DNA of 14,781 bases from Solirubrobacterales bacterium (lineage in GTDB: Bacteria > Actinomycetota > Thermoleophilia > Solirubrobacterales > Solirubrobacteraceae). Every line of letters starts with the position of its first letter. Position 1 is the first letter of the stretch. Under the pieces are notes generated by a model that did no database searches, was not told where the DNA came from, and saw only the letters and a list, made by a program, of their open reading frames with translations. This document shows positions 2,806 to 14,781 of this stretch, piece after piece. The stretch lies in contig JAATFK010000020.1 in assembly GCA_015655225.1 (NCBI GenBank), forward strand, positions 1-14,781, given 5' to 3'. Made by a program: the position numbers and the translations under genes.

Positions 2806-3711
2806 ATGTCCAAGATCATCGTGGTCACGGGGGCGTCCAGCGGATTCGGCGCTCTCACCGTGCGCGCGCTCGGTCGGGACGGTCACGCCGTCTACGCGGG
2901 GATGCGCGACACCGCGGGGCACAACGCCGGCGCCGTCGCTGGGCTCGAGGCCTTCCGGGACGCCAACGCCGTCGACGTCCAAGCGATCGAGATGGACGTC
3001 GGCGACGAGGCGGCCGTCGACGACGCGATCCAGGCGATCGTCGAGCAGCGGGGCCGGCTCGACGTCGTGATCCACAACGCCGGGCACATGGTCCTCGGAC
3101 CTGCGGAGGCGTTCACCCCCGAGCAGCTCGCCGTGATCTATGACGTCAACGTCCTCTCGACGCAGCGCGTCAACCGCGCCGCGCTCCCGCACCTGCGCGC
3201 TCAGCGGGACGGCCTCGTCATCTGGGTCGGGTCGAGCAGCTCCCGGGGCGGGACGCCGCCGTACCTGGCGCCGTACTTCGCCGCGAAGGCCGCAGAGGAT
3301 GCTCTCGCGGTGAGCTATGCGGCAGAGCTGGCACGCTTCGGGATCGAGACGACGATCGTCGTGCCCGGCTCTTTCACATCCGGGACGAACCACTACGCCC
3401 ACGCCGGCCATCCGGCCGACGGACCGATCGTCGCCGAATACGACGCGCTTTACGGCGGGATGATGGACCAGATCCAGGAGCGCATGACGGCGCTTGAGCC
3501 GGCCGACGCGGACCCCGACGGCGTGGCGCAGGCAATCGCGCGCGTCGTGACGGCGCCGAAGGGGGAGCGCCCGTTCCGCGTCCACTACGACCCCTCCCAC
3601 GACGGTGCCGAGGAGGTGTTCGACCTCGGTGACCGGATTCGGCGGGAGTTCTTCGCGCGCGTGGGGCTCGACGACCTGCTGGCGCCCGCGAGCCAGCCGA
3701 GTGCGGGCTGA
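2806..3711 (+). CDS. Short-chain dehydrogenase/reductase (SDR), classical type with C-terminal extension
   Basis: A 301-residue SDR. ATG 2806 follows a GAGGA that overlaps the previous stop codon, and the Rossmann fold begins right after it. The cofactor motif is T-G-A-S-S-G-F-G (8-15) and D64-V is the usual acidic adenine-contact pair. N-A-G is at 91-93 and N115 is present. The catalytic set is S144, Y157 and K161 (Y-F-A-A-K), so unlike its upstream neighbour it has a full canonical tetrad. About 50 residues beyond the usual 250 form a C-terminal extension that contacts substrate in many SDRs of this size. It is almost certainly cotranscribed with the preceding SDR (8-nt gap). It probably acts on a carbonyl/alcohol pair; the exact substrate is unknown. 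Confidence 0.93.
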   Translation: MSKIIVVTGASSGFGALTVRALGRDGHAVYAGMRDTAGHNAGAVAGLEAFRDANAVDVQAIEMDVGDEAAVDDAIQAIVEQRGRLDVVIHNAGHMVLGPAEAFTPEQLAVIYDVNVLSTQRVNRAALPHLRAQRDGLVIWVGSSSSRGGTPPYLAPYFAAKAAEDALAVSYAAELARFGIETTIVVPGSFTSGTNHYAHAGHPADGPIVAEYDALYGGMMDQIQERMTALEPADADPDGVAQAIARVVTAPKGERPFRVHYDPSHDGAEEVFDLGDRIRREFFARVGLDDLLAPASQPSAG

Positions 3712-3742
3712 CGCCGGGCGCTCGAACGCGGGGGCGGTCGCA

Positions 3743-4690
3743 ATGCGAGCTATCTGGTTGTACGAGTTCGGGGGGCCCGAGGTGCTGACGGTGGGCGACG
3801 CCGCTGAGCCCATCGCCGGCCCCGGTCAGGTCCTCGTCGAGGCCGCGTTCGTCAACGTCTCCTTCTCCGAGACAGCATTCCGGGCGACCGGGCGCGGACC
3901 GTTCCCCGGCGCGCCGCCGCTGATCCCCGGATACGGCGCCGGCGGGGTGGTCGTGTCCGTCGGGGCAGGCGTCGAGCCGGCTCTTGCCGGACAGCGGGTC
4001 GTCGGCGGGACCCGTGGACGCGGCGCCTACGCCGAGCGCGTCGCCCTCGACGCCGCCGGCGTCGTGCCCGTGCCCGATGGGCTCGAGCTCGACAGCGCGG
4101 TCGCCCTCTTTGGGGACGGCCGCACGGCGACGAGCCTCGTCCGCACCGCCGCTGTGCGGCGCGGCGAGCGAGTGCTGGTCGAGGCGGCGGCCGGGGGCGT
4201 TGGCACCCTGCTCGTGCAGCTCGCCCGCGCTGCCGGCGCGACGGTGCTCGCCGCCGCGAGCGGCGGGCGCAAGCTCGCTCTCGCCCGGGAGCTCGGCGCC
4301 GACATCGCGGTCGACTACCGGGTTCCAGGCTGGACCGAGCAGGCCGGCGCGGTCGACGTCGTCTTCGACAGCGTCGGTGGCGATGTCGCGCGCGGCGCCT
4401 TCGGGCTCCTGCGGACAGGCGGGCGGATGGTCAGCTTCGGCCGTGCGAGCGGTCACGACGCCGAGCTTGACCAGGCAGCGGCGCGAGCTGCGGGAATCGC
4501 GCTTCTCTCCATGAGCATGCCGACACCCGAGGAGTTTCACGCCGACGTCGAATACGCGCTTGGCGAAGGCGCCGCCGGCCGTCTCCGCGCCGTGATCGGG
4601 CAGCGCTTCCCGTTCGAGCGCGTCGCCGATGCGCATGCGGCGATCGAGGCCCGGGAGACCGTAGGACGCACGTTGCTCGAGCTCCCATGA
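3743..4690 (+). CDS. Zinc-independent quinone oxidoreductase-like MDR protein (NADPH-dependent)
   Basis: A 315-residue medium-chain dehydrogenase/reductase of the quinone-reductase branch. ATG 3743 gives the expected N-terminus, F-G-G-P-E-V-L at 9-15, as in NADPH:quinone reductases. The N-terminal GroES-like part includes P-G-Y-G-A-G-G (62-68), and the cofactor-binding Rossmann motif A-A-A-G-G-V-G lies at 148-154. The cysteine/histidine ligands of catalytic and structural zinc sites are absent, as expected for this branch. It would transfer hydride from NADPH to a quinone or an activated double bond. It starts 31 nt after the second SDR and closes the operon. A purine-rich GGGGGCGG about 6 nt upstream may be its weak ribosome-binding site. 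Confidence 0.9.
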   Translation: MRAIWLYEFGGPEVLTVGDAAEPIAGPGQVLVEAAFVNVSFSETAFRATGRGPFPGAPPLIPGYGAGGVVVSVGAGVEPALAGQRVVGGTRGRGAYAERVALDAAGVVPVPDGLELDSAVALFGDGRTATSLVRTAAVRRGERVLVEAAAGGVGTLLVQLARAAGATVLAAASGGRKLALARELGADIAVDYRVPGWTEQAGAVDVVFDSVGGDVARGAFGLLRTGGRMVSFGRASGHDAELDQAAARAAGIALLSMSMPTPEEFHADVEYALGEGAAGRLRAVIGQRFPFERVADAHAAIEARETVGRTLLELP

Positions 4691-4702
4691 GGCGCTCTCC
4701 GC

Positions 4703-4852
4703 TCAGGCGACGGAGGGGGCGACCTGATCGTGCGTGTCGTCGTGGTCGGTCGAGATGCTCAGCTCGTGCCAGGTTGCCATCTCGCGCGCGGCGAGATCGA
4801 GCTTCGCCTGCACGCGCGCGACGCAATCGGCGCCGAGCTGGAGGTTGGACGG
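4703..4852 (-). pseudogene. Start-less coding remnant, resembles an SDR C-terminal tail
   Basis: On the reverse strand a 49-codon stretch ends in TGA at 4705-4703. It reads like real protein (N-L-Q-L-G-A-D ... A-T-W-H-E-L-S-I-S-T-D-H-D-D), with balanced acidic content and 45 of 49 codons ending in G or C. The frame is open back to 4915, but no ATG, GTG or TTG lies near a plausible beginning, so it looks like the 3' end of a lost gene. The opposite strand shares the same third positions but encodes a Ser/Arg/Cys-rich peptide typical of a shadow. The W-x-x-x-S-x-S-T-D ending resembles the tails of some short-chain dehydrogenases; this is from memory and not certain. Confidence 0.4.
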
Positions 4853-4876
4853 GCTTGAGCGGCGTATGCCCGGTCT

Positions 4877-4907
4877 GATCCGAGCTGCGTCGGATCGGGG
4901 GTACTCT
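4877..4907 (+). promoter_or_regulatory. Toxin-antitoxin promoter with operator-like inverted repeat
   Basis: A perfect 7-bp inverted repeat, GATCCGA-N6-TCGGATC (4877-4896), sits just before a -10-like TACTCT (4902-4907). The antitoxin ATG follows at 4918. The repeat would overlap the -35 region, as expected for an autorepressed antitoxin-toxin operon. The predicted transcription start (about 4914) leaves almost no leader. Repeat seen directly; function inferred. Confidence 0.55.
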
Positions 4908-4917
4908 TGCGGAAGTC

Positions 4918-5163
4918 ATGGCTACCGCGCGTAGGATCAGCCTGCCGCTCGACGAGGAGTTGATCCGTCGCGCGCGCGAGCAGGACCAGAGCGCCGCCGC
5001 GAAGTCGGACCTGGAAGTGGTGGAGGACGCGTTCGCTGTCTTCCTCGGGCTGCGTGCGCTTGACGAGTCGCGGGCTCAGGGCGCGCTCGAACCTGATGAG
5101 GCGGATCGTCTCGCGGTCGATGAAGTTCGCGCCTTTCGTCGCGCGCGGCGCCGCCAGGCGTGA
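4918..5163 (+). CDS. Putative type II antitoxin (ribbon-helix-helix-like)
   Basis: An 81-residue protein, rich in charged residues. Its N-terminal R-R-I-S-L-P-L-D-E-E-L (5-15) resembles the beta-strand plus helix start of ribbon-helix-helix antitoxins, which bind DNA as dimers. The middle is helical (V-V-E-D-A-F-A-V-F-L) and the end is basic. Its stop overlaps the GTG start of the PIN-domain gene by 3 nt (GTGA), the coupling normal for antitoxin-toxin pairs. A GGAAG is only 2 nt from the ATG, too close for a normal Shine-Dalgarno, so translation may be leaderless. An inverted repeat upstream (4877-4896) fits autoregulation. The subfamily is uncertain; the antitoxin role rests mainly on the neighbour. 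Confidence 0.7.
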   Translation: MATARRISLPLDEELIRRAREQDQSAAAKSDLEVVEDAFAVFLGLRALDESRAQGALEPDEADRLAVDEVRAFRRARRRQA

Positions 5164-5572
5164 CGCGCGCCGTCGTCGATCCCAGCGTCTTCGTCTCGGC
5201 GTTCCTGGCCGGCCTGACGCCGGTCCCGGCCGGGTGGAGCGAGCAGCGCTTCACGCTCGTCGTCTCGCGGCTGCTGTTGGAGGAGCTCGCTGGCGTCCTT
5301 GGCCGCCCGATGTTCGAGCGCTGGGCGAGCAACGGCCGCGCGACCTCCTACGTCGCCGGCATCACCGCCCGCAGTGAGCACCGCCCCAATCCGGCTGCCG
5401 CGCAGCCGAGCGTCCGCGATCCCGACGACGACTATCTCGTCGCGCTCGCGCGTGCGGAGAAAGTCGACGTGCTGGTGTCGCTGACCGCGATCTGCTCGAC
5501 GCGAGACTCGGCGACCTCGTGGTCGAGGACCCGGCGACCTTCGTCGCGCGACTCACCCGACCGCACGGCTGA
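5160..5572 (+). pseudogene. PIN-domain toxin (VapC-like / COG1569-like), broken by a -1 frameshift
   Basis: GTG 5160 overlaps the antitoxin stop. The N-terminus V-V-D-P-S-V-F-V-S-A-F-L has the first PIN acidic residue (Asp7), the middle L-V-V-S-R-L-L-L-E-E-L gives the second, and R-D-P-D-D-D-Y-L-V-A-L-A the third. After V-L-V-S (to 5480) the frame goes wrong. Shifting to the frame starting at 5483 restores D-R-D-L-L-D, then L-V-V-E-D-P-A-T-F-V-A-R-L, and a stop at 5570-5572. That totals about 137 residues, the normal size of these RNases. Without correction the frame runs on to 5795 as unrelated basic sequence. Either one base is missing at about 5481-5484 (a real mutation) or this is a sequencing error. 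An active protein would be a metal-dependent ribonuclease toxin. Confidence 0.75.
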
Positions 5573-5663
5573 AACACTCGCACAGCGCTCCAGGCGCCGC
5601 TGGGAAACCTGCGGTCTGATCCTCAGACTCAGCGGACGGTCCAATGACGCGTGCGGGCGGCTG

Positions 5664-6247: not shown

Positions 6248-6284
6248 TTGGACAACGCCTACATACTTAGGGTACCCTAATGCA
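6248..6284 (+). promoter_or_regulatory. SIP1 promoter with 14-bp iron-box-like palindrome
   Basis: TTAGGGTACCCTAA at 6267-6280 is a perfect palindrome whose TTAGG/CCTAA ends match the outer half-sites of DtxR/IdeR boxes. Its 4-bp centre makes it 5 bp shorter than the classical 19-bp box. A -35-like TTGGAC (6248-6253) and a -10-like TACCCT (6273-6278), 19 nt apart, place the start of transcription at about the ATG at 6285, so a bound repressor would cover the -10. A sister copy lies at 10194-10207. Confidence 0.7.
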
Positions 6285-7049
6285 ATGGACATGACCGACC
6301 AGCCCGGCGCGCTGCGGTTCCTCGAGCGATGGGTGCGCCGTGCCGTGGTCGAGCGCGTCGAGGACGTCACGCGCCGGATGCGGCGGGTGACGCTCGCCGG
6401 CGAGGAGCTGGCCGGTCTCGCGTGGGCGCCCGGCCAGCAGGTGCGCGTCCTGTTCAGAGACCCGACGCACGTGCGCTTCTGGTTGTCGCCACGGGAGTTC
6501 GGGGACGCGAGCCGCACCTACTCGTTGTCGAGCTACGACCCCGACGCGGGGCGCTACGAGCTGATCATGCTCGCCCACGACGGCGGCGGCCCGGGCGCGC
6601 GGTGGGCCCGCGACGTCCGCGTCGGCGACCGGATCGCGGTCGGTGCGCCCGAGGGCAAGTTCCTCGCCCGTGTGCCGAGCCCGTATCACCTGTTCGTGGG
6701 TGAGGAGACCGCCGCCGTCTGCTTCGGCGCGATGCTGCGGGCGCTTCCCGCCGACGAGCGCGTGCTCGGGGCGGTGCAGGCCGACACGCCCGAGGATCAC
6801 CTCGCCCTCCCGCGCGGCGAGGACCTGCTGCGCGTCGAGCGCGACGGGGCGAGCGCGTCGCCGTCGACGGCGTTGGTCGACGCGGTCCGCTCGCTCGTCT
6901 TGCCCGAGGAGCCCGGCACCGCCTACCTCGCCGGGGAGGCCAAGACGATCCAAGCGGTCCGGCGGCAGCTGCTCGACGAGCGCGGGTGGACCCGTGCGTC
7001 GATCCTCACGAAGCCGTTCTGGACGCCCGGCAAGCGAGGCCTCGAGTAG
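6285..7049 (+). CDS. Siderophore-interacting flavoprotein (SIP family), SIP1
   Basis: A 254-residue member of the FAD-binding siderophore-interacting/ferric reductase family, which in known members releases iron from imported ferric siderophores by reduction in the cytoplasm. The flavin-binding signature is R-T-Y-S-L-S-S-Y-D (77-85). It is followed by G-P-G-A-R-W-A (102-108), V-G-D-R-I-A-V-G-A-P-E-G (113-124) and a nucleotide-pocket-like V-G-E-E-T-A-A (138-144), and it ends in K-P-F-W-T-P-G-K-R-G (243-252), as SIPs do. ATG 6285 is chosen because the palindromic promoter ends 4 nt upstream; ATG 6291 is an alternative. The motifs diverge from the second SIP at 12823, so this is not a recent duplicate. 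It stands alone, converging on the TetR gene with a 22-nt gap holding only a weak GC hairpin. Iron control is inferred from the palindrome. Confidence 0.88.
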   Translation: MDMTDQPGALRFLERWVRRAVVERVEDVTRRMRRVTLAGEELAGLAWAPGQQVRVLFRDPTHVRFWLSPREFGDASRTYSLSSYDPDAGRYELIMLAHDGGGPGARWARDVRVGDRIAVGAPEGKFLARVPSPYHLFVGEETAAVCFGAMLRALPADERVLGAVQADTPEDHLALPRGEDLLRVERDGASASPSTALVDAVRSLVLPEEPGTAYLAGEAKTIQAVRRQLLDERGWTRASILTKPFWTPGKRGLE

Positions 7050-7071: not shown

Positions 7072-7692
7072 TCAGTTCGACGGCGCCGGCTCCGTCGCGC
7101 CCAGCATGTCGCGCACGACGGCGCGGAGCTGCTCGGCGAGCTCGTCGATCGGCACGTCGCCGAACAGCCCCTCGCCGGTGGCGAGGACCCCCACGACGGC
7201 GCCGAGCGAGCCCATCATCCGCACGCGCTGGTCGAGCGGGATGGCGGGGCTCTGCAGGATGCGGCGGAACAGCTGTCCCGCGTCTTCGTTCTCGGCCTGG
7301 TTGCGCTCGTCGTCGAGAACTTGCTCGACGGCGTTGTGGTTGCGCTGGTGCAGAAGGACGAGGTCGCGGTTGGCGATCACCTGGTCGATCAGGCGGTCGA
7401 TCAGTCCCGGCCAGGCGTCCACCCGCTGACCGTCGTCGAGGCGCTCGAGCTCCTCCAGCGCCTCGCGTCCGAGCGCGTGCAGGCGCAGGTGAAGCTCCAG
7501 GAGGATGTCCTGCTTGCGCTCGAAGTGGTAATAGAGCGCCGCTTTCGTCGTGCCGAGTCGCGTGGCGATGTCGCGCAGCGAGGTCTTCTCATAGCCCTGC
7601 TCGACGAACAGCGCGAGCGCGATGTCGAGGATCCGCTCCCGCGTCGACGGCTCCGGCTGCGCGCCGTCCGCGGTCGTGCTCGCCTGTGGCAT
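7072..7692 (-). CDS. TetR/AcrR-family transcriptional repressor
   Basis: A 206-residue regulator. The N-terminal TetR domain reads [13 protein letters not shown] (17-29), then the helix-turn-helix [21 protein letters not shown] (37-57). The C-terminal ligand/dimerisation part is helical and variable. ATG 7692 precedes a normal TetR N-terminus; a TAGACT -10-like box on this strand (7705-7700) puts the transcript start at the ATG, so it may be leaderless. It is divergent from the DrrAB-type exporter, with two matching 18-bp operators between them, so it very likely represses both itself and the exporter until an inducer binds. Confidence 0.95.
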
Positions 7693-7704
7693 GCCACGCA
7701 GTCT

Positions 7705-7722
7705 ACTTGCCGGCCGACAAGT
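7705..7722. promoter_or_regulatory. TetR operator 1
   Basis: ACTTGCCGGCCGACAAGT is a near-perfect 18-bp palindrome beside the TetR gene start. It overlaps that gene's -10-like box and the probable -35 of the exporter promoter, whose -10 candidate is TACATT at 7728-7733. It matches operator 2 at 14 of 18 positions. Binding by the adjacent TetR is inferred. Confidence 0.8.
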
Positions 7723-7750
7723 GGTGGTACATTGCCTCGCCTCAGCCCTG

Positions 7751-7768
7751 ACTTGCCGACCGGTAAGG
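7751..7768. promoter_or_regulatory. TetR operator 2
   Basis: ACTTGCCGACCGGTAAGG is the second copy of the palindrome, 46 bp centre to centre from operator 1. It lies downstream of the predicted exporter promoter and overlaps its ribosome-binding site AAGGAG (7765-7770). Two spaced sites allow cooperative or roadblock repression. Confidence 0.75.
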
Positions 7769-7774
7769 AGATCC

Positions 7775-8767
7775 ATGAACGACCTGATGATCGAAGCGCA
7801 CGGCCTCGGGAAGCGCTTCGGCGAGACCGTCGCGTTGGACGGGATCGACCTGGAGGTGCCGACGGGCGCGATCCTGGGCGTGCTGGGACCGAACGGCGCG
7901 GGCAAGTCCACGGCGGTGCGGATCCTCACCACGCTCGCCACGCCGGACGCCGGCTGGGCCCGCGTCGCCGGCCACGACGTGGTCCGCGAGGCGCGCGCGG
8001 TGCAGCGCAAGATCGGGGTGACCGCGCAGGACGCCACGATCGACGAGGTCCTGACCGGCCGCCAGAACCTCGTGATGGTCGGACGTCTCGGCGGCCTGCG
8101 CCGGGGGGACGCCCGGGCGCGCGCGGTCGAGCTCCTCGATCGCTTCGACCTCACCGACGCGGCCGACCGTGTCCTGAAGGGCTACTCGGGCGGGATGCGC
8201 CGGCGCCTCGACCTCGCCGCCGGCCTGATGACGCGGCCGCCCGTGCTGTTCCTCGACGAGCCGACCACCGGCCTCGACCCGATCAGCCGGGCGCGGATGT
8301 GGGGCGTGATCCGCGAGCTGATCGCCGACGGCGTCACCCTGCTGCTGACGACGCAGTACCTCGACGAGGCCGACGAGCTCGCCGACCGGATCGTCGTGAT
8401 CGACCACGGCCACGTGATCGCCAACGGCACCGCGGCCGACCTGAAGGCGCAGACCGGCGGGGCGCGCCTGGAGGTCACGCTCAGCGAGCCCCATCCGGCC
8501 GCCGCGGCGACGCTCGACCCCTTCGTCGCTGGTGCGGTGCACGTCAGCCACGACGGACGGCGCCTGCGCGCGCCGGTCCGCAGCGCCGGTGGGCTGGCGA
8601 CCACGATCGTCCGCGCACTCGACGGCGCCGGCATCACCGTCGACGACGTCGAGGTCCACCAGCCCTCCCTCGACGACGTCTTCTTCGCCCTCACGGGCAC
8701 CCCCGTCGAGGGCGATCCCGCCGCACCGGCGGCACCCGACGCAGACCTGGAGGTCACCCCCCGATGA
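7775..8767 (+). CDS. ABC exporter ATP-binding subunit, DrrA (daunorubicin-resistance) type
   Basis: A 330-residue ABC ATPase. It has Walker [10 protein letters not shown] (38-46), Q-loop Q85, signature Y-S-G-G-M-R-R-R (137-144) and Walker B V-L-F-L-D-E-P (157-163) with D-loop [13 protein letters not shown] (192-199) has Gln in place of the H-loop histidine, as is usual for DrrA-like proteins. The extra 100-residue C-terminus is also typical of DrrA. ATG 7775 is 4 nt after AAGGAG; ATG 7787 is a poorer alternative. The stop overlaps the permease start (ATGA). It powers export of a drug-like, lipid or lipophilic substrate through the next gene's product; the substrate is unknown. Confidence 0.95.
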
Positions 8768-9618
8768 GCACCGCCACCGCTGCTCCGCTCTCCCCGGCCC
8801 CGGACGCCACCCGGTCGTTCGGGCTGGTACAGAAGCTCCGCGAGGTCGTGGTGCTGACCGGACGCAACTTCGTCCACATCGCCCGCGAGCCGTTGCAGCT
8901 CTCCGACGTCACGATCCAGCCGGTCCTGTTCACGCTGCTGTTCGTCTACGTGCTCGGGGCTGGTGTCGTGCTGGCCGGCGGCGGCAGCTACAAGGACTTC
9001 GCGATCCCGGGGCTGCTCGCCCTGAACCTCACCACCTCGGCGATCGGCACCGCGGTCGGCCTCAGCACGGATCTGCGCAGCGGCGTGATCGATCGCTTCC
9101 GGACGCTGCCGATGTGGCGACCCGTCGTCCTCGTCGCGCGCTCGCTGACCGACGTGCTGACCGCGATCATCTGCACCGCCTTCGTGATCGGAACCGGCCT
9201 GGTGATCGGCTGGCGACCCGACAGCACCGCGGGCGACGTGATCGCGGGCGTGGCGATCTTCCTGTTCTTCAACTACGCGCTGTCCTGGGTCTGCGCCTGC
9301 ATCGGCATGGTCAGCGATGACCCCGAGACCGCGCAGGGCCTCGGCCTGGTGGTCCTGTTTCCGCTCGCGATCGTCTCCAACGCGCTGGTCCCCACCGCGC
9401 ACATGCCCGCGGTGCTGAGGGCGATCGCCGACTGGAACCCCGTCAGCGCGGTCACCGCGGCCTGCCGTCACCTGTTCGGCAACCCCAACCCCTCGGCGAG
9501 CATCCACGCCTGGCCGATGCAGCACCCGGTGCTCGCCGCGCTGCTCTGGTCCGTCGCGCTGGTGGCGATCTTCGCTCCCCTGGCGACGCTGCTGTACCGC
9601 CGCCGCACGACCGACTGA
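8764..9618 (+). CDS. ABC-2 type permease, DrrB type
   Basis: A 284-residue integral membrane protein with an ABC-2 permease profile. The N-terminus is cytoplasmic with an amphipathic stretch, and about six membrane spans lie at 51-71, 81-101, 128-150, 158-181, 190-210 and 256-276. The conserved stretch G-V-I-D-R-F-R-T-L-P-M (107-117), which contacts the ATPase in this family, is present, as is the W-N-P-V-S motif (224-228). Its ATG overlaps the ATPase stop by 4 nt, so the two are translationally coupled and form one exporter under the TetR operators. No obvious terminator follows. Confidence 0.94.
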   Translation: MSTATAAPLSPAPDATRSFGLVQKLREVVVLTGRNFVHIAREPLQLSDVTIQPVLFTLLFVYVLGAGVVLAGGGSYKDFAIPGLLALNLTTSAIGTAVGLSTDLRSGVIDRFRTLPMWRPVVLVARSLTDVLTAIICTAFVIGTGLVIGWRPDSTAGDVIAGVAIFLFFNYALSWVCACIGMVSDDPETAQGLGLVVLFPLAIVSNALVPTAHMPAVLRAIADWNPVSAVTAACRHLFGNPNPSASIHAWPMQHPVLAALLWSVALVAIFAPLATLLYRRRTTD

Positions 9619-9690: not shown

Positions 9691-10197
9691 ATGAGCACTG
9701 ATGCGGACGACCTGACTCCCGCGATGCAGCGGTACCTGATGGCGATCGTCGACGTGCGGCGTGACGCGAGCGTGACGACGGGCGAGATCGCGCGGGAGCT
9801 GGGCTGCTCGCCGCCGAGCGTCTCCGAGATGCTGCACCGGCTCGAGGAGGCCGGTCACCTGGTGCGGCACGGCGCGCTGCGCCGCGGCGGGTGGCGGCTG
9901 ACGACCCGTGGCTGGTCGCAGGTCGCGGCGATCCGTCGCCGGCAGAGCGTGCTCGAGCTGTTCCTGCGCAGCTGCCTGCGAATGGATGCCGCCGAGGCGG
10001 TTCACGAGGCCGCGCAGCTCGGTCCCTCGGTCTCGAGGGCGCTGGAGCGCCGTCTCTGTGACGCGGTCTGGCCGGTCGGGCGGCCGTGCGGCGCGACGGC
10101 GGGGACGGGGGATGACCCGACGGCCGTGCTGGTTGGCCGATTCGCGACACAGACTGACCGATCGGCGTCCCCGTCGCTGCCTACGCTAGGGACTTAG
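9691..10197 (+). CDS. DtxR/MntR-family transcriptional regulator with degenerate metal site
   Basis: A 168-residue protein with the winged-helix start of metal-dependent repressors: V-T-T-G-E-I-A-R-E-L-G-C-S-P-P-S-V-S (28-45), then M-L-H-R-L-E-E-A-G-H-L-V (47-58) and L-T-T-R-G (70-74). A dimerisation helix contains V-L-E-L-F-L (87-92) and V-H-E-A-A-Q-L (104-110). Aligned by eye with DtxR, residues matching Met10, His79, Cys102, Glu105 and His106 appear to be Arg, Gln, Gln or Ala, Pro and Ser, so classical metal sensing is doubtful. The C-terminal 40 residues are poorly conserved. The stop codon falls inside the iron-box-like palindrome of the next operon. By position it may control that operon and SIP1, but another regulator in the genome could do so. 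Confidence 0.85.
   Translation: MSTDADDLTPAMQRYLMAIVDVRRDASVTTGEIARELGCSPPSVSEMLHRLEEAGHLVRHGALRRGGWRLTTRGWSQVAAIRRRQSVLELFLRSCLRMDAAEAVHEAAQLGPSVSRALERRLCDAVWPVGRPCGATAGTGDDPTAVLVGRFATQTDRSASPSLPTLGT
10144..10187 (+). promoter_or_regulatory. Promoter of the iron-acquisition operon, repeat copy 2
   Basis: GCGACACAGACTGACCG (10144-10160) lies 21 nt before a -10-like TACGCT (10182-10187), matching the layout upstream of the regulator gene. It sits inside the 3' end of the regulator's coding sequence. The predicted start of transcription, about 10194, is the first base of the palindrome. Confidence 0.55.
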
Positions 10198-10207
10198 GGC
10201 ACCCTAA
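10194..10207. promoter_or_regulatory. Iron-box-like palindrome of the secreted-protein/siderophore operon
   Basis: TTAGGGCACCCTAA differs from the SIP1 palindrome (6267-6280) at one central base, and the flanks also match (AC before, T after). An extra half-site-like CTAGGGA sits just upstream at 10186-10192. Placed at about +1 to +14 of the predicted promoter, a bound repressor would block initiation. DtxR-type recognition is inferred from the TTAGG/CCTAA ends. Confidence 0.7.
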
Positions 10208-10261
10208 TCGCCGACTGGCGAGGCGGGTGCGTGTCCCCACCGAGCCGACGAGGAGCCGCCG

Positions 10262-10693
10262 ATGACGATCTACGCGAGACGAACCCGCCACCGAGGCGGG
10301 GCGCTGCTCGCGGTCGCCGTCGCGGTGGCGCTCGGGCTGCTCGCCGCGGGTGCGGCGGCGGTGCCGCCCGGCGGGGCCGAGCCGTCGCACAACGGCGCGA
10401 AGGTCACGCTCGGCAGCACGAAGGCCGGACCCGGCGGTCGGATCCGGGCCTCGGGGACGAGGTTCCCGGCGTCCAAGAGCGTGTCGGTCAAGCTCGACGA
10501 CGACCGGGTCGGCGTGATCGGCGTGCTGAAGGTCAACGCGAGCGGTCGCTTCAGCGGCGTGCTGACGATCCCCTCGAACGTCGCGCGCGTGCTCAAGCCC
10601 GGGCGCCACTGGCTGCGGTTCCTCGCGCCCGCCTCGTCCAAGAACCACCAGTCGAACACCAGCGTGAAGACCTTCTTCACGCTGACGCGCTGA
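10262..10693 (+). CDS. Exported single-domain protein, KLDD/HWLRFL repeat family (P1)
   Basis: A 143-residue secreted protein of unrecognised family. ATG 10262 follows AGGAG (10251-10255) by 6 nt. Residues 1-33 form a signal peptide: basic start, hydrophobic core L-L-A-V-A-V-A-V-A-L-G-L-L, likely cleaved near A-A-A. The mature part is one beta-rich, Ig-like domain: K-V-T-L then A-G-P-G-G (55-59), S-V-K-L-D-D (75-80), N-A-S-G-R-F-S-G-V (92-100) and R-H-W-L-R-F-L-A (115-122). The same landmarks recur three more times in the next two proteins. There is no cysteine, lipobox, membrane anchor or LPxTG. As first gene of an iron-acquisition-type operon it may bind iron, heme or siderophore, or scaffold the surface; this is inference from context. 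Confidence 0.85.
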   Translation: MTIYARRTRHRGGALLAVAVAVALGLLAAGAAAVPPGGAEPSHNGAKVTLGSTKAGPGGRIRASGTRFPASKSVSVKLDDDRVGVIGVLKVNASGRFSGVLTIPSNVARVLKPGRHWLRFLAPASSKNHQSNTSVKTFFTLTR

Positions 10694-10719
10694 CGCCCGC
10701 GCGGCAAGGAGCGATCCCC

Positions 10720-12015
10720 GTGCCGATGAGCAGCAGCAGCAGCCCGGCGTCGACCGTCAGCGTCCGGACGGTCGTGGCGCTGGCCCTCGCGTGCCTCATG
10801 ACGCTCGTGACCGCCGCCTCCGCCGTGGCCGATCCGGTGACCTACCCCGATCCCGCGGGCAGCGACCGCACGATCACGCTCGACGCCGCCACGTACGCGC
10901 CGGGCGCGACGGTCGCCGTCAGCGGCACGGGCTTCCTGGGGACCGACGGCCAGGGCGGGGTGGTGGTCGTCGTCAAGCCCGACGACGACGGCTTCGCCGC
11001 CGCCGGCTTCGGCGGCACGGACGCGACCGCGGCGGTCTCTGGTCATCCGGCGTTCAGCTCGGAGGCCGACGGCAGCTTCGCCGGCTGGGTGACCCTGCCA
11101 AGCGATCTCGCGACGACCGGCCCGGGCACCGGCGCGTACGCCGGCCAGCACTTCCTGCGCTTCCTCGCCGGCAGCCTGGGCAACCCGGGCCCGAGCCTCT
11201 CGCTCCAGGCGTGGTTCGGCGTCGCCGCGCCGGCACCGCCCCCCGCGGCGGTCTCGGCGACGCTCGCGGATATGGCCGTCGCCGCCGGCGGGACGCTCTC
11301 GTTCTCCTTCACCGGCTTCGTGCAGAGCGCCGGCGGCGGCCAGCACGTCGGGCTCAAGCTCGACGACGGCGCGATCGTCGGCTGCGTCCCGGCGAACGCC
11401 GACGGCAGCGGCTCGGGCGCGGTCGCGGTCCCCGCGACGCTCGCGCCGGGCGTCCACACGCTGCGGCTCCTCGGCGGCACCGCCTGCGTCTCGATCGGCG
11501 ACGGCGGCAGCCTCAGCGAGGGCCCGGCGCACAACGCCCTCGTGTCGTTCACGGTGACCGCGCCGGCAGCGCAGCCGCAGCCGCAGCCGGCACCTCAGCC
11601 GCCGGTCGCGTCGCCGGCGCCGACGAAGCCGGCAACACCGGCGACGCCCGTCCCCTACGCGACCCTCGCGACCGGATCGAAGCCGCTGACCGCGCGGGCG
11701 ACGGGCGTCTCGCTGAAGCTCACCGGCCACGGTGCGCGCGGGACGGTGCACGTCACGGTCACGACCGCGCGCAAGGTGCGCCTGCGCAGCGGCAGAGGCA
11801 GAGCCGCGATCGTCACGGTCGCCAGAGCGCGCTCCGTCACGCTCGCGGCGGGCGCGACGCGCACGGTCAGACTCACGCTGACCCGCGACGGCCGGCTGCT
11901 GCTCGCGCGCGTCGCCCACGTGCAGGTGCGCGTCCGCCTCGCCGGCGGCAAGACGGTCGTCGAGACGCTCGCGCTCCGCCCCGCGCCGACCGCGAAGGCG
12001 AAGGCGAAGCGATGA
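10720..12015 (+). CDS. Exported two-domain repeat protein with Pro-rich linker (P2)
   Basis: A 431-residue secreted protein. GTG 10720 is preferred because AAGGAG (10706-10711) is 8 nt away; ATG 10726 lies 14 nt away. The signal peptide spans 1-37 (cleavage near A-V-A). Repeat domain 1 (about 48-168) has K-P-D-D (86-89) and H-F-L-R-F-L (144-149). Repeat domain 2 (about 178-282) has K-L-D-D (213-216), N-A-D-G-S-G-S-G (226-233), H-T-L-R-L-L (246-251) and two cysteines (222, 256) that could form a disulfide. A Pro/Gln/Ala linker (282-312) leads to a C-terminal beta-rich domain (323-420) with L-T-R-D-G-R-L-L-L-A, shared with the next protein. There is no sorting signal; the tail is lysine-rich. 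The stop overlaps the next ATG (ATGA). No known family recognised. Confidence 0.85.
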   Translation: MPMSSSSSPASTVSVRTVVALALACLMTLVTAASAVADPVTYPDPAGSDRTITLDAATYAPGATVAVSGTGFLGTDGQGGVVVVVKPDDDGFAAAGFGGTDATAAVSGHPAFSSEADGSFAGWVTLPSDLATTGPGTGAYAGQHFLRFLAGSLGNPGPSLSLQAWFGVAAPAPPPAAVSATLADMAVAAGGTLSFSFTGFVQSAGGGQHVGLKLDDGAIVGCVPANADGSGSGAVAVPATLAPGVHTLRLLGGTACVSIGDGGSLSEGPAHNALVSFTVTAPAAQPQPQPAPQPPVASPAPTKPATPATPVPYATLATGSKPLTARATGVSLKLTGHGARGTVHVTVTTARKVRLRSGRGRAAIVTVARARSVTLAAGATRTVRLTLTRDGRLLLARVAHVQVRVRLAGGKTVVETLALRPAPTAKAKAKR

Positions 12016-12830
12016 GGCGCGCGGCGGCGGTGCTGCTCGCGGCGCTCGGGATCGCCACGCTCGCCGCCGGCGTGGCGAGCGCACTGCGCGCGCCCGACGA
12101 TCCCGAGGGAGCGAGCGTGCAGATCGCCAGCGCCAGCGTCACGCCCGGCGGGACCGTCGCCTTCACCGGCAGCGGATTCATCGCGACCGGCGGCGGCGGG
12201 CAGGTCGTCACCGTCAAGCTCGACGACACGAGCGTGGCCGGCACCTTCACGGCTGACGCCGGCGGCACGATCTCGGGGACCGTCACGGCTCCGACCTCGA
12301 CGGGCACGCACTGGCTGCGCTTCCTCGCCGGCTCCGGCGGACCGAGCGGCCAGGGCGGCGGCGCGCAGCCGCCCGCGCGCAGTCTGAGTGCCGACTTCAC
12401 CGTCACGGCGGCGAGCTCGCCGCCCGCGACGACGACGAACCCGGCCCCGACGCCGACCACGCCGAGCGTCACGACGCCGACGCCGACGCCGTCGGGACCG
12501 AAGCCGAGCGTGGCAATCCGCTCACGCGCGCTGACCGCCCACGGCACGCGGCTGGACTTGCGGCTGCGATGCGCCGCCGGCGCGGCCTGCCGTGGCACGG
12601 CGACCGTGCGCAGCGCGCGGAAGGTCGTGCTCGGAGGTCATCGCCGCGTCGTGACGATCGCCCGCGGCGCCTACGGGCTGAAGGCGGGAGCGGACAAGGC
12701 GCTCTCCCTGGCGCTCACGCGCGACGGCCGTCGCCTGCTGGCAGCGCACGAGCGGGTCGGCGTGCGCGCCGCGGTCACCCTGCGCGGTTCGAAGTCGCTG
12801 TCGAAGACGCTCACGTTGACGCATGGCTGA
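12012..12830 (+). CDS. Exported repeat-domain protein with C-terminal beta domain (P3)
   Basis: A 272-residue secreted protein. ATG 12012 overlaps the stop of P2. The signal peptide spans 1-24 (R-R-A-A-A-V-L-L-A-A-L-G). One repeat domain (about 34-133) carries T-P-G-G-T-V (44-49), G-S-G-F (53-56), V-K-L-D-D (68-72), I-S-G-T-V (87-91) and H-W-L-R-F-L-A-G-S (100-108). A Pro/Thr linker (135-165) precedes a C-terminal domain (167-271) homologous to that of P2, with L-T-R-D-G-R-R-L-L-A (235-244) and two cysteines (187, 193). There is no anchor. It seems to be a shorter paralogue of P2, implying duplication within the operon. Its end overlaps the SIP2 start by 8 nt. Function unknown; iron or heme handling is suggested by neighbours only. 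Confidence 0.85.
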   Translation: MRRAAAVLLAALGIATLAAGVASALRAPDDPEGASVQIASASVTPGGTVAFTGSGFIATGGGGQVVTVKLDDTSVAGTFTADAGGTISGTVTAPTSTGTHWLRFLAGSGGPSGQGGGAQPPARSLSADFTVTAASSPPATTTNPAPTPTTPSVTTPTPTPSGPKPSVAIRSRALTAHGTRLDLRLRCAAGAACRGTATVRSARKVVLGGHRRVVTIARGAYGLKAGADKALSLALTRDGRRLLAAHERVGVRAAVTLRGSKSLSKTLTLTHG

Positions 12831-13656
12831 GGACCAGCGCGAGGGGACGCGGCCGCGCGTCAAGCGCGTCCGGCACGTCCTGCGCGCCCGCCTGCTCGTC
12901 GTCCGCGACGTCGAGCGGCTGACGCCGAGCCTCGCACGGATCACGCTCACGGGGGACGGCCTGGAGGACTTCGACTCGCGCGCGCCCGACGACCACGTCA
13001 AGCTGCTGTTCGCCCCCGCCGGCGAGGAGCGGCCCTCGCTGCCGAGCTTCGCGCCCGGCACGGCGCGCTACCCCGAGGACGTCACGCCGCCGGTCGCGCG
13101 CGACTACACGCCGCGCCGCTTCGACGCCGCGCGCCGAGAGCTGACGATCGACTTCGTCCTGCATGGCGACGGGCCGGCGTCGGGCTGGGCCGCCAGGGCG
13201 GCGCCGGGGGCCGTCGTCGGTCAGGCCGGGCCGCGCGGCTCGCTGCTCGTCTCCGAGGGCTTCGACTGGTACCTCCTGGCCGGCGACGAGACCGCGCTGC
13301 CGGCGATCGCGCGCCGGCTCGAAGAGCTTTCCGCCGACGTGCGCGCGACCGCGATCATCGAGGTCGCCGATGCCGATCACGAGCTCGAGCTGCGGACCCG
13401 CGCTGATCTCCAGCTGTTCTGGTTGCACCGCAACGGCCGCCCGGCCGGGACGACCGACCTGCTCGAAGCCGCGGTCCGCCGCTGGCGCCCGCCGGCGGGC
13501 GACGGGTTCGCCTGGGTTGCCGCGGAGGCGACGGCCGCACGGGCGCTGCGCTCCTACCTGCGCGAGGAGCAGGGGCTCCCGCGCGAGTGGACGCGGATCA
13601 CCGGCCACTGGCAGCTCGGCGTCGCCGAGCACCGCGACCCGCCCGAGCGTGGCTGA
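12823..13656 (+). CDS. Siderophore-interacting protein (FAD-dependent ferric-siderophore reductase), SIP2
   Basis: A 277-residue typical SIP. It has D-D-H-V-K-L-L-F (56-63), the FAD signature R-D-Y-T-P-R-R-F-D (93-101), H-G-D-G-P-A-S-G-W-A (114-123), G-P-R-G-S (136-140), the G-D-E-T-A-L-P motif (154-160) and the C-terminal W-V-A-A-E ... T-G-H-W-Q-L-G-V-A-E-H-R-D (231-272). Family members reduce the iron of imported ferric siderophores in the cytoplasm, releasing Fe(II). Its ATG lies within the last 8 nt of P3 and its own last 8 nt hold the GTG of the substrate-binding protein, so translation is probably coupled. It is closer to the classical family than SIP1. This is the strongest functional marker for the operon. 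Confidence 0.95.
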   Translation: MAEDQREGTRPRVKRVRHVLRARLLVVRDVERLTPSLARITLTGDGLEDFDSRAPDDHVKLLFAPAGEERPSLPSFAPGTARYPEDVTPPVARDYTPRRFDAARRELTIDFVLHGDGPASGWAARAAPGAVVGQAGPRGSLLVSEGFDWYLLAGDETALPAIARRLEELSADVRATAIIEVADADHELELRTRADLQLFWLHRNGRPAGTTDLLEAAVRRWRPPAGDGFAWVAAEATAARALRSYLREEQGLPREWTRITGHWQLGVAEHRDPPERG

Positions 13657-14674
13657 GGTCGCCGCGCGCTGGCGGGTCGGCGGCGTCCTCGCGCTGCTTG
13701 CGGCGCTCACGCTCGCGGGCTGCGGGTCTGGGTCCGGAGCGAGCCCCGGTGGCACCGCGCCGAGCGGAAGCGCGACGCGCACGATCACCGACGCGCAGGG
13801 CCGCCGCGTCACCGTGCCCGCGCATCCGACGCGCGTGCTGGCGCTGAGCGAGCCGACGCTCGACGGGGCGCTCGCGCTCGGCGTCGCCCCGGTCGGGACG
13901 ACCGACGGACGTGGTCAGAGCGGCGTCTCGGCCTACCTCGCCGGCAGAGCGAAGGGGATTGCGACGATCGGGATCCTCGGCCAGCCCGACATCGAGCGCG
14001 TGCTGGAGCTCCACCCCGACCTGATCCTGACCGACGGCACCTCGATCCAGAGCGACGCGATCCTCGACAAGCTGCGCCACATCGCTCCGACCGTCTACGT
14101 CAGCAAGACCGGTCAGGACTGGAAGACGGCCTTTGCCGCGGAGGCGGACGTGCTCGGCGAGAAGGCACGGGGCACCGCGGTGCTCGGCGCCTTCGACCGG
14201 CGCGTCGCGGCCGTGCGCGGGCAGCTCGGCCCCAACACGAAGGCGACCGTCAGCGTCGTGCGCTGGTCCGGCGTCGGCCTCCCGGACGTGATTCCGGCAG
14301 GGCTCGCCGCCGGTCGCACGCTGACCGCGCTCGGCCTGCGGCGTCCCGGCACGCAGAGCCAGACGGGACCGGGCCACGCGGTCCCGATCAGCCTCGAGAA
14401 CCTCGACCAGCTCGACGCCGACTGGATGTTCTTCGCCTCGCTCGGCGCCGGAGGCCCGAGCGGGGGCGCGAAGGCCGCCAGCGCCGGGGTCGCCGCGAGC
14501 AGACGCGCGCTCGCGCTCGCCCGCGGCACCCCCGGCTTCGAGAACCTGAACGTCGTCAAGGCCGGTCACGTCGAGGTGGTGGACGGGTCCGCGTGGACGA
14601 GCGCCGGCGGTCCGCTCGCCGAGGGGATCGTGCTCGACGACGTCCAGCGCGCAATGGCCGGTAGGGCGAGATGA
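13649..14674 (+). CDS. Iron-siderophore ABC transporter substrate-binding lipoprotein (FepB/FhuD type)
   Basis: A 341-residue periplasmic-binding protein of the iron-compound (class III) fold. GTG 13649 overlaps the SIP2 stop by 8 nt and gives a lipoprotein signal peptide ending in T-L-A-G-C (21-25), so the mature protein is lipid-anchored at Cys25 outside the membrane. The binding domain has R-T-I-T-D-A-Q-G-R-R-V-T-V-P (44-57), R-V-L-A-L-S-E-P-T-L-D (62-72), then A-L-G-V-A-P-V-G (76-83), and P-D-I-E-R-V-L-E-L-H-P-D-L-I-L (113-127), the usual family landmarks. The long helix spanning both lobes fits the middle region. It would capture ferric siderophore or heme and hand it to an inner-membrane permease, probably encoded beyond the window. 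Ligand not readable. Confidence 0.93.
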   Translation: MAEVAARWRVGGVLALLAALTLAGCGSGSGASPGGTAPSGSATRTITDAQGRRVTVPAHPTRVLALSEPTLDGALALGVAPVGTTDGRGQSGVSAYLAGRAKGIATIGILGQPDIERVLELHPDLILTDGTSIQSDAILDKLRHIAPTVYVSKTGQDWKTAFAAEADVLGEKARGTAVLGAFDRRVAAVRGQLGPNTKATVSVVRWSGVGLPDVIPAGLAAGRTLTALGLRRPGTQSQTGPGHAVPISLENLDQLDADWMFFASLGAGGPSGGAKAASAGVAASRRALALARGTPGFENLNVVKAGHVEVVDGSAWTSAGGPLAEGIVLDDVQRAMAGRAR

Positions 14675-14781
14675 GCGACCGCGTCCCCGCTCCGCGCCCG
14701 CCGAAGACGCCGAAGTCGCCCCCCGAGCCGGCGGTCTCCGACGTGCTGCGCGCACTGCGCGACGAGCTCGGGCAGGGACGA
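14671..14781 (+). CDS. 5' part of an unidentified gene at the operon end, truncated by window edge
   Basis: ATG 14671 overlaps the previous stop (ATGA), so the gene belongs to the same operon. Only 37 residues are visible. They form a proline/lysine-rich start (P-A-P-R-P-P-K-T-P-K-S-P-P) then a helix-like V-S-D-V-L-R-A-L-R-D-E-L. There is no signal peptide or membrane segment yet. It could be a cytoplasmic component or a permease or ATPase with an unstructured N-terminus; I cannot identify it. Confidence 0.6.
   Translation, partial: MSDRVPAPRPPKTPKSPPEPAVSDVLRALRDELGQGR

Follow-up and report, generated by a model that had tools for sequence, protein, structure and literature searches.

A predicted Ig-like domain repeated in three exported proteins of a putative ferric-catecholate uptake operon from a Solirubrobacterales bacterium

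In Gram-positive bacteria, siderophore import is usually said to begin at a membrane lipoprotein. The heme-uptake surface proteins HtaA/HtaB and Cht (PF04213) are known from Corynebacterium, the NEAT domains of the Isd system (PF05031) form a heme relay in Firmicutes, and members of the neocarzinostatin family carry a small molecule. To our knowledge, the bacillibactin and enterobactin uptake systems include no extra secreted Ig-like protein family. Here we analyzed a 14781-bp stretch of DNA from a Solirubrobacterales bacterium (the window), which is the entire contig C441 of a 3.9 Mb genome in 729 contigs (77% complete). Three adjacent genes in the window, P1, P2 and P3, encode exported proteins that share one repeated domain, and they precede ferric-siderophore uptake genes. 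Together, the results argue strongly that P1–P3, encoded behind an iron box, assist ferric-catecholate import from outside the cell as accessory proteins.

The operon and the regulator gene before it are arranged as follows, with the signal peptides of P1, P2 and P3 recognised by eye:

9691..10197, forward strand: DtxR/IdeR-family metal-dependent regulator gene (PF01325 46 bits, cut-off 26; PF02742 26.3 bits, just below the cut-off of 27)
10194..10207, no strand: iron-box-like palindrome TTAGGGCACCCTAA, which shares bases with the regulator gene's stop codon and lies 54 bp upstream of P1
10262..10693, forward strand: P1, secreted, 143 amino acids (aa), with a single domain at about residues 43–143 (10388–10690)
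10720..12015, forward strand: P2, exported, with two domain copies (about 10870–11172 and 11236–11490), a Pro-rich linker and a C-terminal part
12012..12830, forward strand: P3, exported, with one domain copy (about 12096–12356), a Pro/Thr linker and a C-terminal part
12823..13656, forward strand: siderophore-interacting protein (SIP) of the flavin ferric-siderophore reductase family (PF08021 122 bits, PF04954 131 bits)
13649..14674, forward strand: iron-siderophore ATP-binding cassette (ABC) substrate-binding lipoprotein (SBP), FecB/YfiY-like (PF01497 57.9 bits)
14671..14781, forward strand: start only of a Fes-type enterochelin esterase gene (first 37 codons, truncated by the contig end), assigned by likeness to the esterase of stretch L010

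With the chosen starts, P2 and P3 overlap by 4 bp, P3 and SIP by 8 bp, SIP and SBP by 8 bp, and SBP and the next gene by 4 bp, so that the translational coupling claimed in an earlier note on this DNA can be read from P2 through the gene after SBP. P1 and P2 are separated by a gap of 26–32 bp, with P2 starting at GTG 10720 or ATG 10726. The nearest solved relatives of the lipoprotein by sequence were mostly siderophore- or iron-complex-binding proteins. The L010 esterase, whose start the truncated gene matches at 58% over 26 aa (E 2e-4 when four sequences were compared), carries PF11806 and PF00756 and follows the same lipoprotein. A lipoprotein, a SIP and an esterase, whose presence in one unit we took to mark a catecholate uptake operon, thus occur together here, the esterase by its first 37 codons only. 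No permease genes were found on the window contig.

The repetition of the domain was confirmed with a profile built entirely from outside the window, using the domain parts of 13 close and 25 Nocardioides-type relatives (38 sequences). This profile found exactly four domains in the three proteins, one in P1 (114.7 bits), two in P2 (31.5 and 41.4 bits) and one in P3 (61.4 bits), while the best of 3000 residue shuffles of P1–P3 scored 9.6 bits. The earlier note had described three adjacent exported proteins with four copies of one domain, which agrees with this result, and its landmarks were all found at the residues it named: KLDD at 77 and HWLRFL at 116 in P1, KPDD/HFLRFL at 86/144 and KLDD/HTLRLL at 213/246 in P2 (counted from the GTG), and KLDD at 69 and HWLRFL at 100 in P3. 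Conservation was assessed in an alignment of 70 of 106 sequences (the window's P1, P0002–P0014, and 56 of the 92 Nocardioides-type relatives). K77, D80, G99, R119 and L121 (P1 numbering) were kept in all 70 rows, D79 and L118 in 69, and H116 and W117 in 68. The His emphasized in the earlier note is therefore constant in the window's four copies but not absolute in the family, where Ser or Tyr takes its place in two of the 70 rows; P0009, which has the Ser, is among the closest relatives.

These residues suggest how the proteins might act. Strands were predicted at residues 73–78, with K77 within and D79 just after, and at 114–122, which include W117 and R119; by strand alternation, K77, D79, W117 and R119 could share one outer face of a sheet. 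We infer a binding site made up of the invariant K, D, W and R. In the mechanism that we find most likely, the shared Ig-like domain would bind the siderophore, alone or as its iron complex, on the outer side of the membrane; the domain proteins would then hand it to the lipoprotein, a direction of transfer that we presume. FecCD-type permeases would then import the siderophore, SIP and Fes would release the iron, and iron would repress the operon. We give an even chance to this fuller account, in which P1–P3 are accessory proteins of iron-repressed ferric-catecholate uptake whose domain would bind and relay the siderophore.

Scans of P1–P3 gave no Pfam or NCBIfam match above cut-off, in keeping with the earlier note, whose author knew of no family with this signature. 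HtaA (PF04213) and NEAT (PF05031) gave no match in P1–P3 up to E 10, Neocarzinostatin (PF00960) gave none at its cut-off of 25 bits, and GEVED (PF20009, cut-off 24.4 bits) was not reached in the window, with 8.7 bits for P3 and none for P1 and P2. Sub-threshold matches of P1–P3 to CBM_6 (13.7 bits), DUF6330, Invasin_D3, GEVED (8.7 bits), GxPGS (15.1 bits) and others were not adopted. In Streptomyces, four of the five relatives tested exceeded the GEVED cut-off (52.7, 55.4, 58.7 and 28.4 bits; P0168 18.9 bits). Among the models searched, the family thus has no Pfam or NCBIfam match in the window and a partial match to GEVED in Streptomyces.

A search of PDB sequences with the P1 profile found no relative (best E 0.21). 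The domain is predicted to be a small Ig-like beta-sandwich, and the fold itself is not new. Ig-like was one of the folds that the earlier note had listed for comparison; the domain also resembles generic actinobacterial Ig-like domains, at a profile match of 97.7% to a set collected with the same profile. Comparison with the PF00960 profile gave 34.5% for the P1 set and 78.6% for the Nocardioides set (0.1% and 0.0% with shuffled columns). HtaA and NEAT structures were not among the 50 structure matches shown, which excludes nothing.

Such broad Ig-like domains are common in these genomes, as weak matches, and P1–P3 might accordingly be generic surface proteins that lie beside iron genes by chance. 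The gene neighbourhoods already contradict this, and we consider it scarcely credible. Stretches fetched from other genomes were annotated by tblastn with the proteins of the window and its relatives. Motif-bearing matches were found in 14 genomes: seven of the window's order (G000, G035, G106, G135, G086, G025, G194), four Nocardioidaceae records (L053–L056, found with two P1 peptide patterns), and three of another family (G471, G624, G697), called Streptomyces-like, as relatives of the four-repeat protein are Streptomyces. L047, L048, L051 and L012 are extra stretches of counted genomes and were not counted again. Siderophore genes stood beside the domain genes in 14/14 of these genomes; homologues without a link to iron genes, which the earlier note would have read as refuting its proposal, were not seen among them. 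The linkage recurs in three groups of Actinomycetota with different gene orders, which argues against simple descent of one block. By contrast, 14 loci with weak generic matches (L022–L034, L041) had neither the motif (0/14) nor an iron gene within 1.5 kb (0/14).

The lipoprotein was the commonest neighbour, present in 13 of the 14; the exception, L065, has dhbC-E-B, non-ribosomal peptide synthetase (NRPS) and Fes genes. Fes or its start was found in ten (the window, L010, L011, L045, L049, L050, L053, L055, L056, L065); it lies on a different contig in G135, and none was seen in stretches L054, L083 and L084. Genes for dhb or NRPS shared the stretch with the domain in L010, L056, L065, L083 and L084. 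A P2-like protein beside dhbA-C-E-B in L012 was without the motif. The biosynthetic neighbours could point to a carrier or keeper of newly secreted apo-siderophore, which would hold it near the cell or protect it and deliver no iron to the importer, and the secretion of the window proteins without a visible anchor and the neocarzinostatin-like folds among the best matches would suit this role. However, an uptake gene is the most frequent neighbour, and genome G086 (84% complete) has the domain and uptake genes (L049) with no dhbB found, and we regard such a carrier as improbable.

The family is rare across the genomes sampled: strong P1 matches (E < 1e-30) were found in 7/232 genomes of the window's order, a sample of 396 genomes of the phylum gave one match besides the window's own genome, and the Streptomyces-like family gave matches in 3/150. 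A further match in the phylum sample, in G611 (E 8e-12), was left out, as its Ig-like protein is of the generic kind without the motif and its 16 kb stretch matched no reference iron gene. Among the 232 order genomes, the lipoprotein (E <= 1e-60) was present in 8, Fes (E <= 1e-40) in 7 and dhbB (E <= 1e-30) in 10. All seven P1 genomes fell within the eight lipoprotein genomes, six within the Fes set and six within the dhbB set; the window's own genome is outside the Fes set, its Fes gene being cut off by the contig end. All seven strong loci carried the motif (a variant in G194), and six had the lipoprotein in the same short stretch, with that of the window just beyond. Weak P1 matches only were found in 13 more order genomes, from which the 14 weak loci described above were taken, and the 7 kb contig of G133, a genome with a 45% SBP, carries no domain gene.

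Wider searches extended the family to anchored and fused proteins. In a set of 5.8 billion proteins, P1 had 13 relatives besides itself at E <= 0.01. A Nocardioides relative used as query gave 92 relatives, the first 98% identical to it, none with a precomputed Pfam domain; the source names listed read hypothetical or uncharacterized protein, and one cluster also has an LPXTG-anchor label. Their named sources include Nocardioides, Mumia, Solwaraspora, Nesterenkonia, Microbacterium, Corynebacterium bovis (partial), Propionicimonas, and an acidimicrobial metagenome-assembled genome. A four-repeat Streptomyces relative gave 62 relatives among the 8000 best candidates scored, the first 99% identical to it; these were mostly named hypothetical protein, with a few Ig-like domain-containing and one HtaA domain-containing protein, and they carry precomputed Pfam GEVED, with HtaA in the HtaA-named one.

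The absence of an anchor described in the earlier note holds for the window, where no C-terminal hydrophobic segment or anchor was seen by eye in P1–P3, but not for the relatives. A C-terminal hydrophobic segment was present in 90 of the 92 Nocardioides-type relatives (mean hydropathy threshold 1.6; one exception 1.56), and Streptomyces relatives have LAxTG-like tails (by eye). The distant relative P0168 joins the domain to HtaA (PF04213 43 bits, cut-off 24) and has an LAxTG-like tail, and HtaA-type fusions of the same build, with an LAxTG-like wall-anchor tail, were recognised by eye, from similar or almost identical sequence, in L083 (9933–11471) and L084 (9089–10309), both in catechol-siderophore loci. 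A protein of L053 (N. insulae, 2831–5608) joins the domain to a propeller-like region (Lactonase 21.1 bits, just below the cut-off of 21.7), and beta-propeller (YVTN/lactonase-like) matches recur in the siderophore loci L011, L049, L053 and L065. In L054 (13833–18471), genes resembling hmuTUV by eye, a second transporter, are followed by a membrane-tailed protein that has both a domain variant (FDDG/HKLRLIG) and a neocarzinostatin match below threshold (19.2 bits, cut-off 25).

The HtaA and propeller fusions favour a surface role in iron uptake and are compatible with both ligand binding and docking. The main rival to siderophore binding is a docking or display module: within surface iron-uptake complexes, the domain would keep HtaA, propeller or binding proteins close to the transporter and would not itself contact the siderophore. 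One to four repeats per protein, these fusions, the hydrophobic C-termini and the occurrence of the domain in siderophore and heme-like settings alike all suit such a module; the window's P1, however, is a lone secreted domain with no visible anchor, and strict conservation is centred on a few polar and aromatic residues. We judge docking unlikely, though it deserves the most attention among the alternatives.

The P0168 fusion, the L054 genes with their domain variant, and the His kept in 68/70 rows would also fit heme acquisition by hemophore-like proteins. The earlier note had proposed hemophore-like or siderophore relay proteins. Their export and link to iron stand; the dhb, NRPS and Fes context makes heme the less likely ligand, despite the HtaA-fused Streptomyces relative, and the setting is that of a catechol siderophore more than of heme. 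With no HtaA or NEAT match in P1–P3 and the His replaced in P0009, a heme role appears very improbable.

For siderophore binding by the domain, a broader proposal can be made tentatively: an extracellular Ig-like siderophore-binding family may serve as a surface relay for ferric catecholates in Gram-positive Actinomycetota, doing for siderophores what the NEAT and HtaA relays do for heme. As part of this proposal, and held with the same reserve, its members would be soluble in the window's group and membrane- or wall-anchored in Nocardioides and Streptomyces.

The iron-box-like palindrome noted earlier is real at 10194–10207, and the regulatory role guessed for it is strengthened by a set of sites across the assembly. 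The pattern TTAGG-N4-CCTAA (TTAGGNNNNCCTAA) occurs twice in the window, upstream of a second SIP gene at 6285 and upstream of P1, versus 0.01 expected, and TTAGGG-N2-CCCTAA has six sites in the assembly (control pattern 0). The second copy and its gene are:

6267..6280, no strand: second palindrome copy TTAGGGTACCCTAA, perfect, 4 bp upstream of the ATG taken as the second SIP start
6285..7049, forward strand: second siderophore-interacting protein, SIP2 (PF04954 80 bits, PF08021 66 bits)

The classical DtxR/IdeR box is 19 bp, longer than the 14-bp form here. Boxes of the 14-bp form, or with <=4 mismatches from the 19-bp DtxR form, were found in 11/14 loci, whatever their position relative to starts, against a random expectation of 0.0 (ten first-order random sequences per locus). 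Genes at the assembly's other box sites were named by eye, except dhb, NRPS, FecCD and ATPase. One site, on contig C387 (L092), lies upstream of a run with an AraC-type regulator, a flavin halogenase-like gene, dhbA, dhbC and dhbB, and an NRPS match lies on the opposite strand, from the contig end towards the dhb run; the window's own genome thus has dhbA, dhbC, dhbB and NRPS homologues on C387, with no full dhbE. Another site precedes a short gene and then a DtxR-family gene. A third, on contig C296 (L091), is upstream of an ExbB-like gene, and HugZ-like, binding-protein, FecCD and ATPase genes follow; together they are probably a heme-uptake operon, mostly by eye.

Two observations stand apart. 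The halogenase-like gene beside dhbA, dhbC and dhbB (by eye; L092 1828–3342) raises the possibility that the siderophore might be chlorinated. On contig C629 (L013 6899–6912), the same palindrome is found just upstream of an rpsD-like gene for ribosomal protein S4.

Several points weigh against siderophore relay under iron control. No box was found in L010, L011 and L050, and L046 and L054 show the lipoprotein as their sole siderophore-type neighbour. The Fisher P values for co-occurrence of P1 with the lipoprotein, Fes and dhbB (1e-12, 2e-10 and 7e-9) ignore shared ancestry, and the genome searches score a capped number of candidates per genome, leaving absences soft. Four of the ten dhbB genomes had no strong domain match; G198 has dhb, FecCD, a 40% SBP and Fes with no domain nearby, and G024 and G203 have dhb homologues with no domain nearby. 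Since some catechol-siderophore genomes are without it, the domain is an accessory, not essential. Some copies are without the full motif (P1 of G194 has KLND/YWLRF, its other copies KVDD), and some Streptomyces repeats are without the DD. The Ig-like fold is common, and neocarzinostatin structures could not be separated (Z within 1) from an adhesin repeat, Spo0M and galactose oxidase; with these ties and the weak profile match, likeness to neocarzinostatin was rejected as proof of a carrier role. Finally, the HtaA fusion and the L054 variant fit a module common to heme and siderophore surface proteins, hence docking and not ligand recognition.

In the literature, the available text on the DmdR1 iron regulon of Streptomyces coelicolor includes an htaA-hmuTUV locus (PMC12161575), and that on Tat substrates lists HtaA proteins as candidates with a C-terminal membrane anchor (PMC10924467). 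The available part of a report on the Rothia enterobactin cluster names no such protein (PMC7190385), and no description of this domain family was found in the open-licence papers searched. If the proposed role is true, an extra conserved domain at siderophore loci, secreted or anchored to the wall, would mean that some Gram-positive bacteria use an extracellular capture step, as with heme. A group of proteins from Nocardioides, Streptomyces and soil actinobacteria, most of which now bear the name hypothetical protein, would gain a function, and the domain would be a marker for some catechol-siderophore users.

Elsewhere in the window, DrrA/DrrB-like ABC exporter genes are located at 7775–9618, adjoined on the opposite strand by a TetR-like gene (by eye; region 7072–9618). 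Rfam at gathering thresholds gave no match in the window.

Compared with known systems, P1–P3 and their relatives resemble HtaA/HtaB and Cht in being surface proteins, exported or with a membrane tail, that are encoded next to an iron-complex ABC transporter and lie under DtxR-type boxes, and the HtaA domain itself is fused with the new domain in the Streptomyces protein P0168; unlike HtaA, P1–P3 have no HtaA match, and their neighbours make and use catechol siderophores, not heme. With NEAT/Isd they share small repeated Ig-like domains outside the membrane, the hand-over of an iron ligand to a lipoprotein being only proposed here, but they have no NEAT match, no heme genes in the window operon, and a catechol-siderophore context. 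Like the neocarzinostatin family, which is among the best structural neighbours, the domain would be a secreted actinobacterial Ig-like sandwich of similar size; it differs in having no PF00960 match in P1–P3, a weak profile comparison and another gene context. GEVED (PF20009) matches four of the five tested Streptomyces relatives, whereas the window proteins stay under its cut-off. The recognisable parts of the operon are of the kind known from bacillibactin and enterobactin uptake, with its binding lipoprotein, FecCD, Fes and SIP.

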